Shown here in pieces: positions 14,038 through 20,410 of a stretch of DNA of 23,038 nucleotides. Source of the stretch: a virus. Below the pieces are notes generated by a model. It made no database searches. It saw only the letters and a program-made list of their open reading frames with translations, and had not been told where the DNA came from. The stretch is from positions 1 to 23,038 of the IMG/VR virus record IMGVR_UViG_3300031963_000968. One strand, 5' to 3'. The first letter of the stretch is position 1. Each line of letters opens with the position of its first letter. Both the position numbers and the translations under genes were made by a program.

Positions 14038-15294
14038 CTAGACTCCTGATATTACGTCGATAGGCTCCCAGCCATCATCAGCCTCTTCAAAGTAGCTTGT
14101 CACAGCCAACTGGTCGATATAGCTGAGTGCATCTGGCAGATCATCGTGTACCCCTTGCGCGGGAAACATCAGAAGTTGGTCAACAAAGTCGTCCCAATTC
14201 TCTTCGCTGTTTAGCACTATTCTGCCGTGTTCAAACCGGCCTTGCAATGCCCACACGATTCTATCCGTTTTCTTGCGATTTCCGTGAGTTAAATCAACGA
14301 TGTGCGAAAACACGTTGTTTTTCCTCATGAGATCGCTCAAATACGGCAAAACCGCGTTCTTTAGCGCCCCCCGCTCAATTCCGACACTCAATGGCCGGTA
14401 ATCCCGCATCTTGGTCAGAATCTTAGTGGCTGTTTCCCGGATATCCCACCTGCCGTGGTCGATCTCCTGGACGAACCATTTGCCCTCATCCGTGACCTTG
14501 ACTACCGCAATGGCCGACTCATCTAGCCGTTTTTTGGAGTTTGCAGCCTGTTTGGCCACTTCCTCGAAGCCAGCCAGATCCACAGCCACAAAATAAGAGC
14601 CATAAGGCGGTTCTTCGCCATATTTGATCCACTCTTCCTTGAAGACATCCGATCCAGCATTGGAGAAGCTGGCCATGTATTCCTGCTTAAAAGCGAAGCT
14701 GGACAGCGTTTTCTTGGCAGACTCGATCTCGTCCGGATCTATCAGCGGGTTGTCTTTGGTCGTGAAGTGCCAGGACTTCCAATCCTTGTCATCGCCATCC
14801 TGGCCCAGCTTCCACAGGTCGTGAAACCAGTTCCTGCCCTTTGGCGTTCCAATGAAGATAGCCTTGCCCTTCTTGTCGGACAGAGAAGCGCGGATAACCT
14901 GCTCCCAGGCTTGGGGCTTGATGTCTGCAACCTCGTCCAGCACCGCGAACGTCAGAGACACGCCTCGCAGTGTGTCAGGACGATCAGAGCCACGGACGTA
15001 GATTCTGGCCCCGTTTATCAGGGTAATGTCCAGGTTGTTGACGTTGGAGGTCTGGATCACCTCCCTGCCAAGTTCCAGCAGCAAGTCCCAGACAATCTGG
15101 CGCGACTGTCCCATAGTGGGACTAACGTACAGCACCGCTGAACCCTGGGGACACCGCAGCCCCTCGATGATCAGCATGGTAGCGGCCAGCCTGGACTTCC
15201 CACACCTACGGCCAGCAGCGATCACCTTAAAGCGGGTCGGGTCTGCGTAAACCTCTTGCTGCCAGGGCAGTAGTGAGAAGTTCAGGTCACTCAT
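14038..15294 (-). CDS. Terminase large subunit (packaging ATPase and nuclease)
   Basis: A 418-residue packaging motor. Residues 11-14 (WQQE) supply the adenine-binding glutamine. The Walker A motif is GRRCGKS (28-34), Walker B is VLDE (118-121) and the coupling motif is IGTPKG (148-153). The RNase H-like nuclease begins near AVDLAG (Asp 239) and ends with HDDLPDAL (383-390), containing the metal-binding aspartates. Length and motif order are complete, with no frame break. It pumps phage DNA through the portal and cuts it. The gene overlaps the small subunit candidate by eight bases and ends just before the portal ribosome site. Confidence 0.95.
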   Translation of the reverse strand: MSDLNFSLLPWQQEVYADPTRFKVIAAGRRCGKSRLAATMLIIEGLRCPQGSAVLYVSPTMGQSRQIVWDLLLELGREVIQTSNVNNLDITLINGARIYVRGSDRPDTLRGVSLTFAVLDEVADIKPQAWEQVIRASLSDKKGKAIFIGTPKGRNWFHDLWKLGQDGDDKDWKSWHFTTKDNPLIDPDEIESAKKTLSSFAFKQEYMASFSNAGSDVFKEEWIKYGEEPPYGSYFVAVDLAGFEEVAKQAANSKKRLDESAIAVVKVTDEGKWFVQEIDHGRWDIRETATKILTKMRDYRPLSVGIERGALKNAVLPYLSDLMRKNNVFSHIVDLTHGNRKKTDRIVWALQGRFEHGRIVLNSEENWDDFVDQLLMFPAQGVHDDLPDALSYIDQLAVTSYFEEADDGWEPIDVISGV

Positions 15295-15589
15295 ATTTGG
15301 GTTCTACGTCCTCAGCCTCGATGGTTTCACCAACCTGGACACCGATGCCAGAGATGGTGATGTTGACAGCACTACGCTGGGCGCTGGTCTTCTCAAACAG
15401 GCTGACCGGCAACGCTCTTTCCATGCACATCTTAAGTGCAACCATCTGTTGGGGGTGATCGTCGTTCATGGCGATGTCAATGACCTTCTTGACAACAGCC
15501 TCGCCCTTGGACTCCACCAACATCTTCTTTAGCTCTTTGAGCCGCTGGTACTCAGTCTTGGGTAAAACAGCAGGTGTTCTGTAAGCCAT
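15287..15589 (-). CDS. Putative terminase small subunit
   Basis: A 100-residue mostly helical protein (LPKTEYQRLKELKKMLVESKGEAVVKKVIDIAMNDDHPQQMVALKMCMERALPVSLF) with a beta tail (AVNITISGIGVQV). It directly precedes and overlaps the large terminase gene, the classic place of the small subunit, which chooses the packaging site. It lacks an obvious helix-turn-helix, so the assignment rests on position, size and helical core. The ATG at 15589 has no Shine-Dalgarno sequence and lies five bases after a perfect TACAAT -10 element, so the mRNA may be leaderless. Confidence 0.65.
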   Translation of the reverse strand: MAYRTPAVLPKTEYQRLKELKKMLVESKGEAVVKKVIDIAMNDDHPQQMVALKMCMERALPVSLFEKTSAQRSAVNITISGIGVQVGETIEAEDVEPKYE

Positions 15590-15594
15590 AAGCC

Positions 15595-15633
15595 ATTGTA
15601 TAGGAAACTAGCGTTTACGAGAATAGGGTAAAC
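15595..15633 (-). promoter_or_regulatory. Candidate leftward promoter of the virion operon with a TAGGG box
   Basis: On the leftward strand CCTATACAAT stands at 15604-15595 with the -10 hexamer TACAAT at 15600-15595. The expected -35 place (15623-15618) reads TTCTCG, a poor match. Immediately upstream is GTTTACCCTA (15633-15624), the exact reverse complement of the array core TAGGGTAAAC. Its centre lies about 41 bases from the predicted start of transcription, a typical activator place. The distant promoter at 16.49 kb shares CCCTATTC-(15 or 16 bases)-CCTATACAAT. A reverse half GTTTAC lies at 15613-15618. Confidence 0.6.
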
Positions 15634-15988
15634 CATGATATAGTGAGTTCACGGGGGCATGACCCACCCCTCTATGCGGTTGAGCCGACCAAGTAGGATA
15701 AACGTGACGAACTGGGTGAGTTTCTAGTAGCCCCCTGCCAATGTCGTGAGACACCGCAGGTCAGGTGAACGGGGCAACGTAACTCAGGTGCCATCAGGCA
15801 TAGTCTAGATAAACGAGAGGCTCCCTCTTCAAGAGGACTACCCATCTACGGGTCTCTACTCTTTCTCCTCTCTTTTTTTTTAGCAGGCGTTGTCGTCACG
15901 CTGTTAGGCTAAATCCACTTTTTCGGAGGGGGTGGGGCACCACAAAATTTTTACACAGCCGCCCGACCCTCCCCCCCCTATCACACAT
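15634..15988. other. Non-coding stretch between the terminase operon and the repeat array
   Basis: No convincing gene on either strand. It holds one further box-like sequence, TAGGATAAAC at 15694-15703 (9 of 10 with the array core), and an inverted repeat GGGGGC (15653-15658) / GCCCCC (15730-15735). There are small hairpins such as CCTCTTCAAGAGG and ACCCATCTACGGGT near 15825-15855, then a run of nine T at about 15872-15880 and a C/G-rich segment with CCCCCCCC. It could be a packaging or replication-control site near the terminase genes, but no known site type is recognised. Confidence 0.5.
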
Positions 15989-16073
15989 CCGGGCAAACCC
16001 GCACAGGGTAAACCCTCATAGGGTTTCTACTGATAGGGTAAACACTAATAGGGTAAACGATAGTAGGGTAAAC
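15989..16073 (+). repeat. Six-copy direct repeat with an exact 15-bp period (core TAGGGTAAAC)
   Basis: Copies start at 15989 (CCGGGCAAAC), 16004 (CAGGGTAAAC), 16019 (TAGGGTTTCT), 16034, 16049 and 16064 (all TAGGGTAAAC). The five-base linkers differ, while the spacing is exactly 15 every time. The array sits in the control region between the leftward virion operon and the small regulator-like gene. Regular, short, non-coding direct repeats of this kind are either iterons for an initiator protein or a row of operators. The same core occurs once at 15624-15633 in front of the terminase operon. Confidence 0.88.
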
Positions 16074-16121
16074 CCTGATGCAACAGACGCATGAGGTTAT
16101 GCGTAAGATGCATTGTTTCAC

Positions 16122-16388
16122 CTATGAATCAGCGAGGGTGAGGGACGAGGATGGTGCTTTTCCTGTGGACTTCCCAGGGGTCTTGCCCTTGCTTGCCCTT
16201 GTCGGTGTTTCATGTGAAACATTCGAAGCGAAGCGACCATTGAGCGGGTGGATTGACCGCCACAATTCCAGGCATTCGTTGAAGCCTACAGTGATGTCAC
16301 CATCACCGGCATCTAGTAGGATTTCCCTTTGTTCGGGCGTGATTGGCCTGTGGAAAATCCGGGTGTCCTGACGGCATGGTCTGGCCAT
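16122..16388 (-). CDS. Small ribbon-helix-helix-like protein, candidate regulator
   Basis: An 88-residue protein. The N-terminal half, RIFHRPITPEQREILLDAG then DGDITVGFNECLELWRSIH, has the order strand, helix, Gly-containing turn and helix of ribbon-helix-helix DNA-binding proteins. The phrase PEQREILLDAGDGD..GFNECLELW also resembles a recurrent phage family without known role. The second half (FASNVSHETPTRASKGKTPGKSTGKAPSSS) is a flexible basic tail. The gene lies between the 15-bp repeat array and an inverted operator with the same TAGGG core, downstream of a good leftward promoter. A 97-codon frame on the opposite strand is less protein-like. That it binds those repeats is an inference. 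Confidence 0.65.
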   Translation of the reverse strand: MARPCRQDTRIFHRPITPEQREILLDAGDGDITVGFNECLELWRSIHPLNGRFASNVSHETPTRASKGKTPGKSTGKAPSSSLTLADS

Positions 16389-16425: not shown

Positions 16426-16496
16426 ATTCTAAGGGTTTCCCCTAGTGGTCAATTAGGGTTTGTCCCTATTCCCAGGTGTTCAGATGCCTATACAAT
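16426..16496. promoter_or_regulatory. Divergent promoters sharing one TTAGGGT..GTCCCTAT operator
   Basis: The 17-bp box TTAGGGTTTGTCCCTAT lies at 16453-16469. Rightward, CCTATACAAT ends in the -10 element TACAAT at 16491-16496. Leftward, TTGACC (16452-16447) and TAGAAT (16431-16426) make a promoter with a 15-base spacer for the gene at 16122-16388. The box centre (16461) is about 42 bases from both predicted start points. A second inverted repeat, CTAAGGGTTTCCCCTAG (16429-16445), fills the leftward spacer and could be a repressor site. Start points are predicted, not measured. Confidence 0.65.
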
Positions 16497-16542: not shown

Positions 16543-16743
16543 ATGCAAAACATCACCACACTCAGCGCCAAGGCCCTGGCCTATTTCGTCAAGCCTATGG
16601 ACTATGTCACCAATGGTTCGGACATTGGGCGCTACTTTGGCACTACCAAGCGTGGTGTCCATGTTGTCGCCTGGGGTGACAAGCGTGACGATTTTGAGAC
16701 GGCAGAGAAACTGGTCTCTTACCTGGAGCGTCACTCAGCCTAA
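16543..16743 (+). CDS. Small early-type protein, function unknown
   Basis: A 66-residue protein (MQNITTLSAKALAYFVKPMD...SDIGRYFGTTKRGVHVVAWG...ETAEKLVSYLERHSA). It has a helix, a short strand pair and a helix, no membrane span and no cysteine. The ribosome site AAGGAA lies in a leader (GGGGTCTCTTAAGGAAGCATC) almost identical to that of the next gene. It is the first gene after the rightward promoter at 16.49 kb, so it is probably transcribed early. Small first genes of phage early operons often redirect the host; nothing in this sequence shows which target. Confidence 0.65.
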   Translation: MQNITTLSAKALAYFVKPMDYVTNGSDIGRYFGTTKRGVHVVAWGDKRDDFETAEKLVSYLERHSA

Positions 16744-19175: not shown

Positions 19176-19396
19176 GGTTTTACGTTCATCTCAATGAGTT
19201 TATCCAAGTAGTGCCGGGCCTTGCGTAGGTCTTCTACGCCGCCCTTGTCCTTGTACCGAACCAAATACTTGATGGCATTGCCGCGCAGGAATCCCGAAAA
19301 CTCCTCCTCGGTCATCCAGGCCTGCATTGCCTCCCAAGGCTGGATCGCTTTGGCCGTGTAGTGTGTGCCTCCGACCTGGGTTTGGTTTGCGCTCAT
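19172..19396 (-). CDS. DUF3310 family protein
   Basis: A 74-residue protein with the family pattern: TQVGGTHYTAKAIQPWEAMQAW at the N-terminus and FLRGNAIKYLVRYKDKGGVEDLRKARHYLDKLIEM in the second half. DUF3310 proteins are widespread in phages, sometimes annotated as nucleotide kinase-like, but no activity has been shown that I know of; there is no P-loop here. Start overlaps the upstream stop (ATGA) and its own stop overlaps the next start, so it is embedded in a coupled series with the resolvase genes. Confidence 0.9.
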   Translation of the reverse strand: MSANQTQVGGTHYTAKAIQPWEAMQAWMTEEEFSGFLRGNAIKYLVRYKDKGGVEDLRKARHYLDKLIEMNVKP

Positions 19397-19746
19397 ACGC
19401 CCCGCCTGATCTGAGCCAGCCGCTCCCGGATGTGGTCAGGCATCGGGACTGTGTTGGCAATACGCTGTTGGTACTCTTGCTCCATTGTGAGGGGCTTTTT
19501 GATTTCTGGAATCTCAGCCCCATCCCAACGCTGCTGATTTAAGTAAACAAGTGGTGCTGGGATGAATGCACCGTTGTCTTTTCGCCACTGATCGGTTGTT
19601 TTCATCCACTCAACGTGTTTGATGATCTGATCTGCACACGTCTCACAATAGGTCTTCTTCCACTTGGCTAGGCAGGCTGCTTTGCCGCCTTTTCTGAATG
19701 ACTTTGGCCATGCTGCCCAGAATCGGTCGAATCCACTCTCAAACAT
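19393..19746 (-). CDS. Phage replication O-like C-terminal domain protein
   Basis: A 117-residue protein. The start is the ATG at 19746, which has a perfect AAGGAGG seven bases upstream. The pattern F..FWAAWPKSFRKGGKAACLAKWKK (residues 3-30), then QIIKHVEWMKTTDQWRKDNGAFIPAPLVYLNQQRWDGAEI, is that of the small C-terminal domain of phage replication initiators and helicase-loading proteins (W.K..G.FIP.P..YLN..RW). No N-terminal origin-binding domain is attached, so this is a free-standing version. It heads the leftward operon with RusA. A role in loading the host helicase is plausible; an unrelated regulator is possible. Confidence 0.6.
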   Translation of the reverse strand: MFESGFDRFWAAWPKSFRKGGKAACLAKWKKTYCETCADQIIKHVEWMKTTDQWRKDNGAFIPAPLVYLNQQRWDGAEIPEIKKPLTMEQEYQQRIANTVPMPDHIRERLAQIRRGV

Positions 19747-19765
19747 TAAGCCTCCTTGTCGTTGA

Positions 19766-19791
19766 ATCATAAACACCATAATTCATATGGT
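19766..19791 (-). promoter_or_regulatory. Candidate promoter and inverted repeat before the leftward operon
   Basis: ACCATA-ATTCA-TATGGT (19775-19791) is a perfect inverted repeat that lies just upstream of a -10-like TATGAT (19771-19766) on the leftward strand. The start point would be about 12 bases before the first ATG, just ahead of the ribosome site. No good -35 is seen. The repeat is well placed for a repressor or activator. GGTTCACCC occurs twice nearby (19789-19797 and 19840-19848). Confidence 0.4.
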
Positions 19792-20163: not shown

Positions 20164-20322
20164 TCAAGCCCCTACAAACCACTCGGGTTTGATGACCATT
20201 AGCTGATAGACGCGGCCCTGTGGCATCTGCTTCCACTGGTTCACTGCGCCCCTGGACACGCCCAGTATCCGCGCCAGTGCAGCCTGCGAACCCGCCCGTT
20301 TGATCGCCTCTTCTTTGGTCAT
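20164..20322 (-). CDS. Cro/YdaS-like helix-turn-helix repressor
   Basis: A 52-residue protein. I start it at the ATG at 20322 (MTKEEAIKRAGSQAALARIL) because the upstream extension looks non-coding and includes the promoter. Residues 12-32, SQAALARILGVSRGAVNQWKQ, form a clear helix-turn-helix: Q..LA..LGVS.GAV..WK is the Cro/YdaS recognition pattern. The C-terminal strand end, QGRVYQLMVIKPEWF, is the dimer arm typical of tiny Cro-like proteins. Upstream lies the palindrome GTACAGTGTAC, overlapping the likely promoter, so it probably controls its own gene and the divergent recombination operon. A large terminator follows. Confidence 0.82.
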   Translation of the reverse strand: MTKEEAIKRAGSQAALARILGVSRGAVNQWKQMPQGRVYQLMVIKPEWFVGA

Positions 20323-20324
20323 CC

Positions 20325-20410
20325 GTACAGTGTACTCTACATTCACTGGCCACGGGTTAGGGTAAGTCCCTATGAAAAAGTCTTGTGTGGCGTTAAGAGA
20401 ACTGTACAAT
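20325..20410. promoter_or_regulatory. Divergent control region of the Cro-like gene and recombination operon
   Basis: Four elements are visible. GTACAGTGTAC (20325-20335) is an exact 11-bp palindrome just upstream of the Cro-like start and overlapping a leftward -10-like TAGAGT (20339-20334). The box TTAGGGTAAGTCCCTAT (20357-20373) matches the box at 16453-16469 in 15 of 17 positions. A rightward promoter has TTGTGT (20383-20388) and TACAAT (20405-20410), spacer 16. A second GTACAG half-site on the opposite strand (20402-20407) overlaps that -10, where a Cro-like protein would block transcription of the recombination genes. Confidence 0.6.

Follow-up and report, generated by a model that had tools for sequence, protein, structure and literature searches.

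A 15-bp array of palindromes beside the terminase genes of an uncultured phage as candidate tandem operators in an exchangeable slot

A tandem-operator reading of the array

The window, by which we mean the whole 23,038-nucleotide stretch that was analysed, contains beside its terminase genes an array of six degenerate 12-bp palindromes, AGGGTWWACCCT, set at 15-bp steps (positions 15989-16076, assigned to neither strand; recognised from sequence and kept in relatives). We propose, with a probability of about 0.55, that these are tandem operators, and that a dimeric regulator binds AGGGTWWACCCT and acts on phage promoters from single copies placed at about -42 or -52. As the same palindrome occurs in the array and at fixed promoter positions, the array most likely binds, in tandem, the regulator that would use the single sites.

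In this scenario, a two-fold-symmetric dimer would fill the array units side by side, and the same regulator, acting from single palindromes at the distances given above, may switch on several promoters of the phage. The interval that holds the array, between ORF88 and a poly-G element (the slot), would then serve as a hub of regulation ahead of the packaging/late operon, where, in relatives, host proteins (LexA, Fur, DnaA, SlmA, ParB, XerCD) may dock as well. Occupancy of the slot would buffer or time phage transcription.

The phage and its relatives

The window, a 23-kb virus record, represents part of the genome of an uncultured freshwater podovirus-like phage. Its minus strand encodes the large terminase (14038-15294), portal, scaffold, major head protein and tail genes, and the genes to the right encode GP88-like, RusA, initiator-like, Cro-like regulatory and Sak-like annealing proteins and a YqaJ exonuclease. 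The gene that we call TerS (15287-15589, minus strand, 100 aa) is assigned from its small-terminase position; its product gave no passing Pfam or PHROG match. Relatives of the terminase are encoded in at least 600 IMG/VR stretches. Two near-complete relatives of 37.6 kb are circularly shifted, or permuted, with respect to one another. Searches by terminase or portal found no close cultured phage, and searches with the array DNA found no plasmid or cultured-phage relative. A prophage search in GTDB for the host gave a single 55% contig, and no prophage or plasmid form of the phage family was found.

The array is far beyond chance and is kept in close relatives

Within the non-coding interval, period 15 scores 34, whereas 1000 shuffles reached no more than 13 at any period from 6 to 40, and a period-15 array was also called by Tandem Repeats Finder; the array is thus far beyond chance. 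Its units start at 15989, 16004, 16019, 16034, 16049 and 16064, with 3, 1, 4, 0, 0 and 0 mismatches to TAGGGTAAAC, respectively, in agreement with the initial annotation, which described six copies at an exact 15-bp period, three of them identical, one differing by a base and two drifted. That annotation had taken a 10-mer as the unit. Copies of the 10-mer are real, but they form only a part of the true repeat unit, which consists of the 12-bp palindrome and a 3-bp spacer. On the terminase strand the units read ATCAGGGTTTACCCT, ACTATCGTTTACCCT, ATTAGTGTTTACCCT, ATCAGTAGAAACCCT, ATGAGGGTTTACCCT and GTGCGGGTTTGCCCG; the perfect form, AGGGTTTACCCT, is found in two of the six, and most drifted units retain one arm. 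It had also been remarked that neighbouring sites would face opposite sides of the helix, and that this is unusual. The arithmetic is right (15 bp amount to about 154 degrees of net rotation), but such an arrangement is unremarkable for separately bound dimers.

The array is, as first described, non-coding, with the exception of one unlikely short ORF, and about 45 bp separate it from the 3' end of ORF88. Relatives with the same gene order and no array at this place had been named as the observation that would speak against a function; on the contrary, close relatives retain it in the identical place, beside the conserved poly-G element and before the terminase genes, with copy numbers that differ mostly by 15-bp steps. 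The order shared in the aligned close relatives is ORF88, array, poly-G GGGGGGGGAGGGT, a near-invariant non-coding block, TerS and TerL. Among the relatives sharing the core, 54 pairs of successive matches are 15 bp apart, and a symmetric palindrome emerges from the base profile of 132 matches, which were chosen by their similarity to the palindrome.

Single palindromes stand at fixed distances from predicted promoters

In related loci, copies of the palindrome beyond the slot are rare and stand mostly at two constant positions, one immediately ahead of TerS and the other ahead of ORF88. The former corresponds to the single core reported earlier at 15624, which proved real: it is the 12-mer ATGGTTTACCCT (15625-15636, minus strand), invariant among close relatives, and its dyad, at about -42 of the predicted TerS/late promoter, precedes the -10 hexamer by 30.0 bp. 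This hexamer, TACAAT (15596-15601, minus strand, within TATACAAT), lies only 6 bp before the ATG at 15589, and a leaderless messenger would be expected from the predicted promoter (15587-15604). Before ORF88, the operator AGGGTTTGTCCCT (16455-16467, neither strand) is at about -42 with respect to each of the two predicted divergent promoters, that of the plus-strand gene at 16543 and that of the minus-strand ORF88, while a second one, AGGGTTTCCCCT (16432-16443, neither strand), falls between the -10 and -42 positions of the ORF88 promoter and at about -65 of the 16543 promoter. This pair between divergent promoters resembles, by analogy, a phage switch. Finally, the gene of the Sak-like annealing protein (recombinase) has AGGGTAAGTCCCT (20359-20371, plus strand) at about -52 of its predicted promoter; this copy is also near the start of the P22-Cro-like gene on the opposite strand.

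When distances from the dyad to a -10-like hexamer on the same strand were counted in related sequences, so that the cases are not independent of each other, 30.0 bp occurred in 36 cases, nearly all at the TerS promoter, and 29.5 bp in 24 cases, at the divergent ORF88/16543 promoters. In these 60 cases the palindrome is therefore near -41.5 of a predicted promoter, as in class II activation. A few cases, at TTGACA promoters and the recombinase promoter, showed 39.5-41 bp, one turn further; others showed 53 bp. If the -10 hexamer is taken to start at -12, the dyads are at about -42 and -52, positions where activators can sit. The spacing of the single sites before the predicted promoters is thus an activator geometry, and it is on this geometry that we base our interpretation of the array as a set of tandem operators for a protein regulating phage promoters. 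The cooperative operator suggested in the initial annotation is accordingly favoured as far as the dyad symmetry and the placement at about -42/-52 of several predicted promoters are concerned.

By eye, no good -10 hexamer was found at a proper distance from the array, so the units would not be promoters in their own right. A generic promoter scan returned no more promoters than expected by chance. The single sites at promoters often have a 13-bp form (AGGG-N5-CCCT), as opposed to the 12 bp of the array, and a rigid dimer might not tolerate both.

Candidate binders of the palindrome

TerS is an unlikely reader of the array, as TerS proteins 97-100% identical are encoded beside differing arrays. 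ORF88 is probably an unlikely binder as well: L258 has the same array type and an identical TerS beside a divergent ORF88 (its terminase agrees with that of the window over the part read), and other loci have a single operator and no ORF88. The product of the P22-Cro-like gene (20164-20409) is a candidate regulator only. The palindrome is present near the start of this gene in close relatives, but absent there in L012 and L229.

In relatives the slot holds sites of host-protein type

A tandem repeat that beats its own shuffles (p<0.05) is present in the ORF88-to-poly-G interval of 39 of 46 distinct relatives, with unit lengths of 7, 8, 9, 11, 15, 22-24 and others. At least one consensus site for DnaA, LexA, ParB (parS), XerD (dif), SlmA or Fur was found in 80 of 99 distinct slots. 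When random intervals taken from these loci were scored, the number was 0-6, and with shuffled slots it was 1-5. The counts come from related sequences, however, and overstate independence. AGGGTWWACCCT is the commonest kind of site (50/99 slots), and more than one kind, AGGG included, is present in 63 of the 99 intervals at a slightly looser parS threshold. Close relatives exchange one kind for another, which implies that sites have been gained and lost repeatedly. The window itself has, among the six host-type kinds, only a parS site with one mismatch, TGTTTCATGTGAAACA (16206-16221, neither strand, inside ORF88), of which relatives have a perfect or near variant.

We counted a panel of 37 motifs on 76 distinct intervals and compared the counts with those in the remainder of each locus. 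In the slot, the six named kinds and AGGGTTTACCCT were enriched 27- to 1070-fold, with 15 to 66 sites each; AGGGTTTACCCT itself was found in 33 of the 76 intervals (28-fold). None of the other known motifs in the panel was comparable, the strongest being MetJ, 15-fold and in a single locus. As the six kinds had been picked after the sequences were seen, they were retested, with thresholds unchanged, on 23 new intervals from relatives fetched with two other terminases. The enrichment mostly held: the counts inside and outside the slot were 5/0 for DnaA, 5/0 for LexA, 1/0 for parS, 12/1 for Fur and 4/2 for SlmA (one locus), XerD being weak (5 inside, 13 outside), and AGGGTTTACCCT was present in 17 of the 23 intervals, with 26 sites in 7.6 kb vs 6 in 116 kb outside.

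For LexA, Fur, DnaA, dif and the rest of the panel, generally known consensus sequences were used. Exact DnaA boxes, TTATCCACA, number 27 in 16 kb of slot vs 16 in 625 kb elsewhere; they occur in the slots of 13 of 99 relatives, and some relatives have nine near-matches within about 220 bp. XerD arms are present in 19 of the 99. Dif-like sites (e.g. ACTTCGCACAA-CGTCCA-TTATGTAAAGT) stand 65-165 bp from poly-G, and the twelve best in 641 kb are all near the slot. In relatives' slots, the step between LexA-type boxes (CTGT-N8-ACAG) is 18 or 32 bp, that between Fur-type boxes is mostly 30 bp, and SlmA-type sites (consensus GTGAGTACTCAC; PMC3116907) most often follow one another every 22 bp. The parS variants (consensus from PMC10197239) TGTTTCACGTGAAACA or TGTTCCACGTGAAACA occupy a single position within ORF88 in close relatives, with varying flanks; exact parS is present in many viral contigs and is thus not specific to this phage family.

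In the slots of L009, L019, L238, L247 and L261, a further palindrome-like repeat, TGTTGTATTTACGCAACA, alternates with AGGGTAAACCCT among close relatives. The slots of L031, L035, L045, L052 and L025 are filled by GC-rich, microsatellite-like repeats of 7-9 bp (CTGGCCG, CCAAGCC, CGGCCCGCT), in which no recognisable binding site was found.

Conserved elements beside the slot

ORF88 (16122-16388, minus strand) encodes a small protein, modelled as an extended stretch and two helices, whose family stands beside the slot in most clades; over 45 distinct members adjoin it. The family has no match in Pfam, PHROGs or PDB. Its sequence pattern and helices hinted at an RHH fold, which Foldseek, VIA-align and profile searches did not support. 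The C-terminal peptides NVSRET and NENDSQL found in the family are, respectively, a translated parS site and a translated Fur-type box.

The poly-G element on the other side of the slot (G8-A-GGG-T; 15966-15978, minus strand) is present in nearly all relatives, where its form is G7-9 A G3-5 T (L002-L079, L330-L445). It contains GGGNAGGG, which we take to resemble the FtsK-orienting KOPS consensus. A conserved A/T-rich and C-rich stretch follows 20-50 bp beyond it in nearly every relative. Between poly-G and TerS lies the near-invariant non-coding block (15650-15850, minus strand), which precedes TerS in 56 IMG/VR stretches (L213-L263). Its alignment shows compensatory base changes, with nine base pairs changed on both sides and up to four pair types per pair, and the block is probably a new structured RNA. 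It has no Rfam match, and folded as a single sequence it does no better than its shuffles, the covariation being visible in the alignment only.

Alternative explanations

It is also conceivable, though we hold this only tentatively, that the slot serves for docking or as a decoy, its banks of sites titrating or recruiting host chromosome and stress proteins, and that the array is the bank of a host-encoded binder. This explanation overlaps with tandem operators and differs from them in the host origin of the binder and in the purpose of capture. The 80 of 99 slots with a host-type consensus, the absence of anything comparable in the rest of the motif panel, the repeated enrichment in the 23 later intervals and the swapping of kinds between close relatives all argue for such a function. 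On the other hand, AGGGTWWACCCT fits no host-protein consensus known to us, and we found no published papers on this palindrome or on comparable phage slots; its position at predicted phage promoters fits a working regulator better, and 2 to 6 sites per genome are few for titrating abundant proteins. A simple roadblock, in which any tightly bound array, irrespective of the protein, halts read-through from ORF88 into the late operon, would also account for kinds of site that replace one another, occur in several copies and crowd between two transcription units. However, neither the single palindromes at promoters nor the singly placed parS and dif-like sites are explained in this way, and we consider a roadblock improbable.

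The initial annotation offered a phage origin as well. The repeats would then be iterons bound by an initiator, and the DnaA boxes, dif-like sites and parS sites would be auxiliary to replication or plasmid maintenance. Direct repeats of a fixed 15-bp period are what iterons look like, no other iterons were seen around the initiator-like gene (19393-19779, 3 kb from the array), and the concentration of DnaA boxes and of the best dif-like sites in the slots of some relatives, together with the parS variants, points in the same direction. Yet most relatives have neither DnaA boxes nor XerD arms in the slot, in the window no exact DnaA box lies closer than 300 bp to poly-G, and LexA-, Fur- and SlmA-type arrays would be misplaced at an origin. 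Cumulative GC skew, proposed as a check, makes no turn at the array, but it appears to follow gene direction and is not informative on an origin. The missing prophage or plasmid form does not help either, and an origin is, in our opinion, unlikely. Least probable is a pac or cos site recognised by the small terminase. Its location next to the terminase genes and the strongly conserved poly-G would suit packaging, but TerS proteins are identical or 97-98% identical where arrays differ, so the two do not change together. In addition, the near-complete relatives are permuted and most contigs cross poly-G, which indicates that this place is not evidently a fixed genome end.

Possible meaning of the slot

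Returning to the tandem operators, the window provides a concrete predicted promoter regulon built on one palindrome. A broader idea, which we consider plausible but would not bet on, is that an abundant family of uncultured phages keeps exchangeable banks of host-protein sites by its terminase genes and through these banks senses or subverts the state of the host. The proteins meant are DnaA, LexA, Fur, SlmA, ParB and XerCD, our array being the bank for yet another protein, and the state in question would be that of the cell cycle and of stress. If this were true, phages could adjust to host control of DNA replication, SOS, iron and division, or disturb it, via DNA sites alone, with no need for dedicated proteins. 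The slot family would also constitute a natural series of similar phages that differ in the docked host protein, so that effects of the latter could be compared.

Comparison with known systems

Like the iterons of plasmid and phage origins, the array consists of tandem direct repeats of a fixed period, accompanied by single or inverted copies at promoters, and the Rep/O proteins of iteron origins may, in addition, recognise an operator in the promoter of their own gene. Unlike in those origins, each unit of the array is itself palindromic, no initiator gene adjoins it, and relatives swap the repeats for LexA-, Fur- or SlmA-type sites. In class II activator operators a dyad near -41.5 takes the place of the -35 hexamer, as with lambda CI at OR2 and CRP sites. 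The single palindromes resemble these by standing about 42 bp before a predicted start, or, in a few cases, one turn further upstream where there is a -35 hexamer or at the recombinase promoter; the multi-copy array does not, having no -10 of its own and being placed about 350 bp ahead of the TerS promoter. A third likeness is to datA, the host locus that titrates DnaA, and to operator decoys, as the slots appear to hold clusters of sites for host DNA-binding proteins. What would set our phages apart from these is that one slot, in one phage family, seems to exchange sites that fit six or more host proteins.
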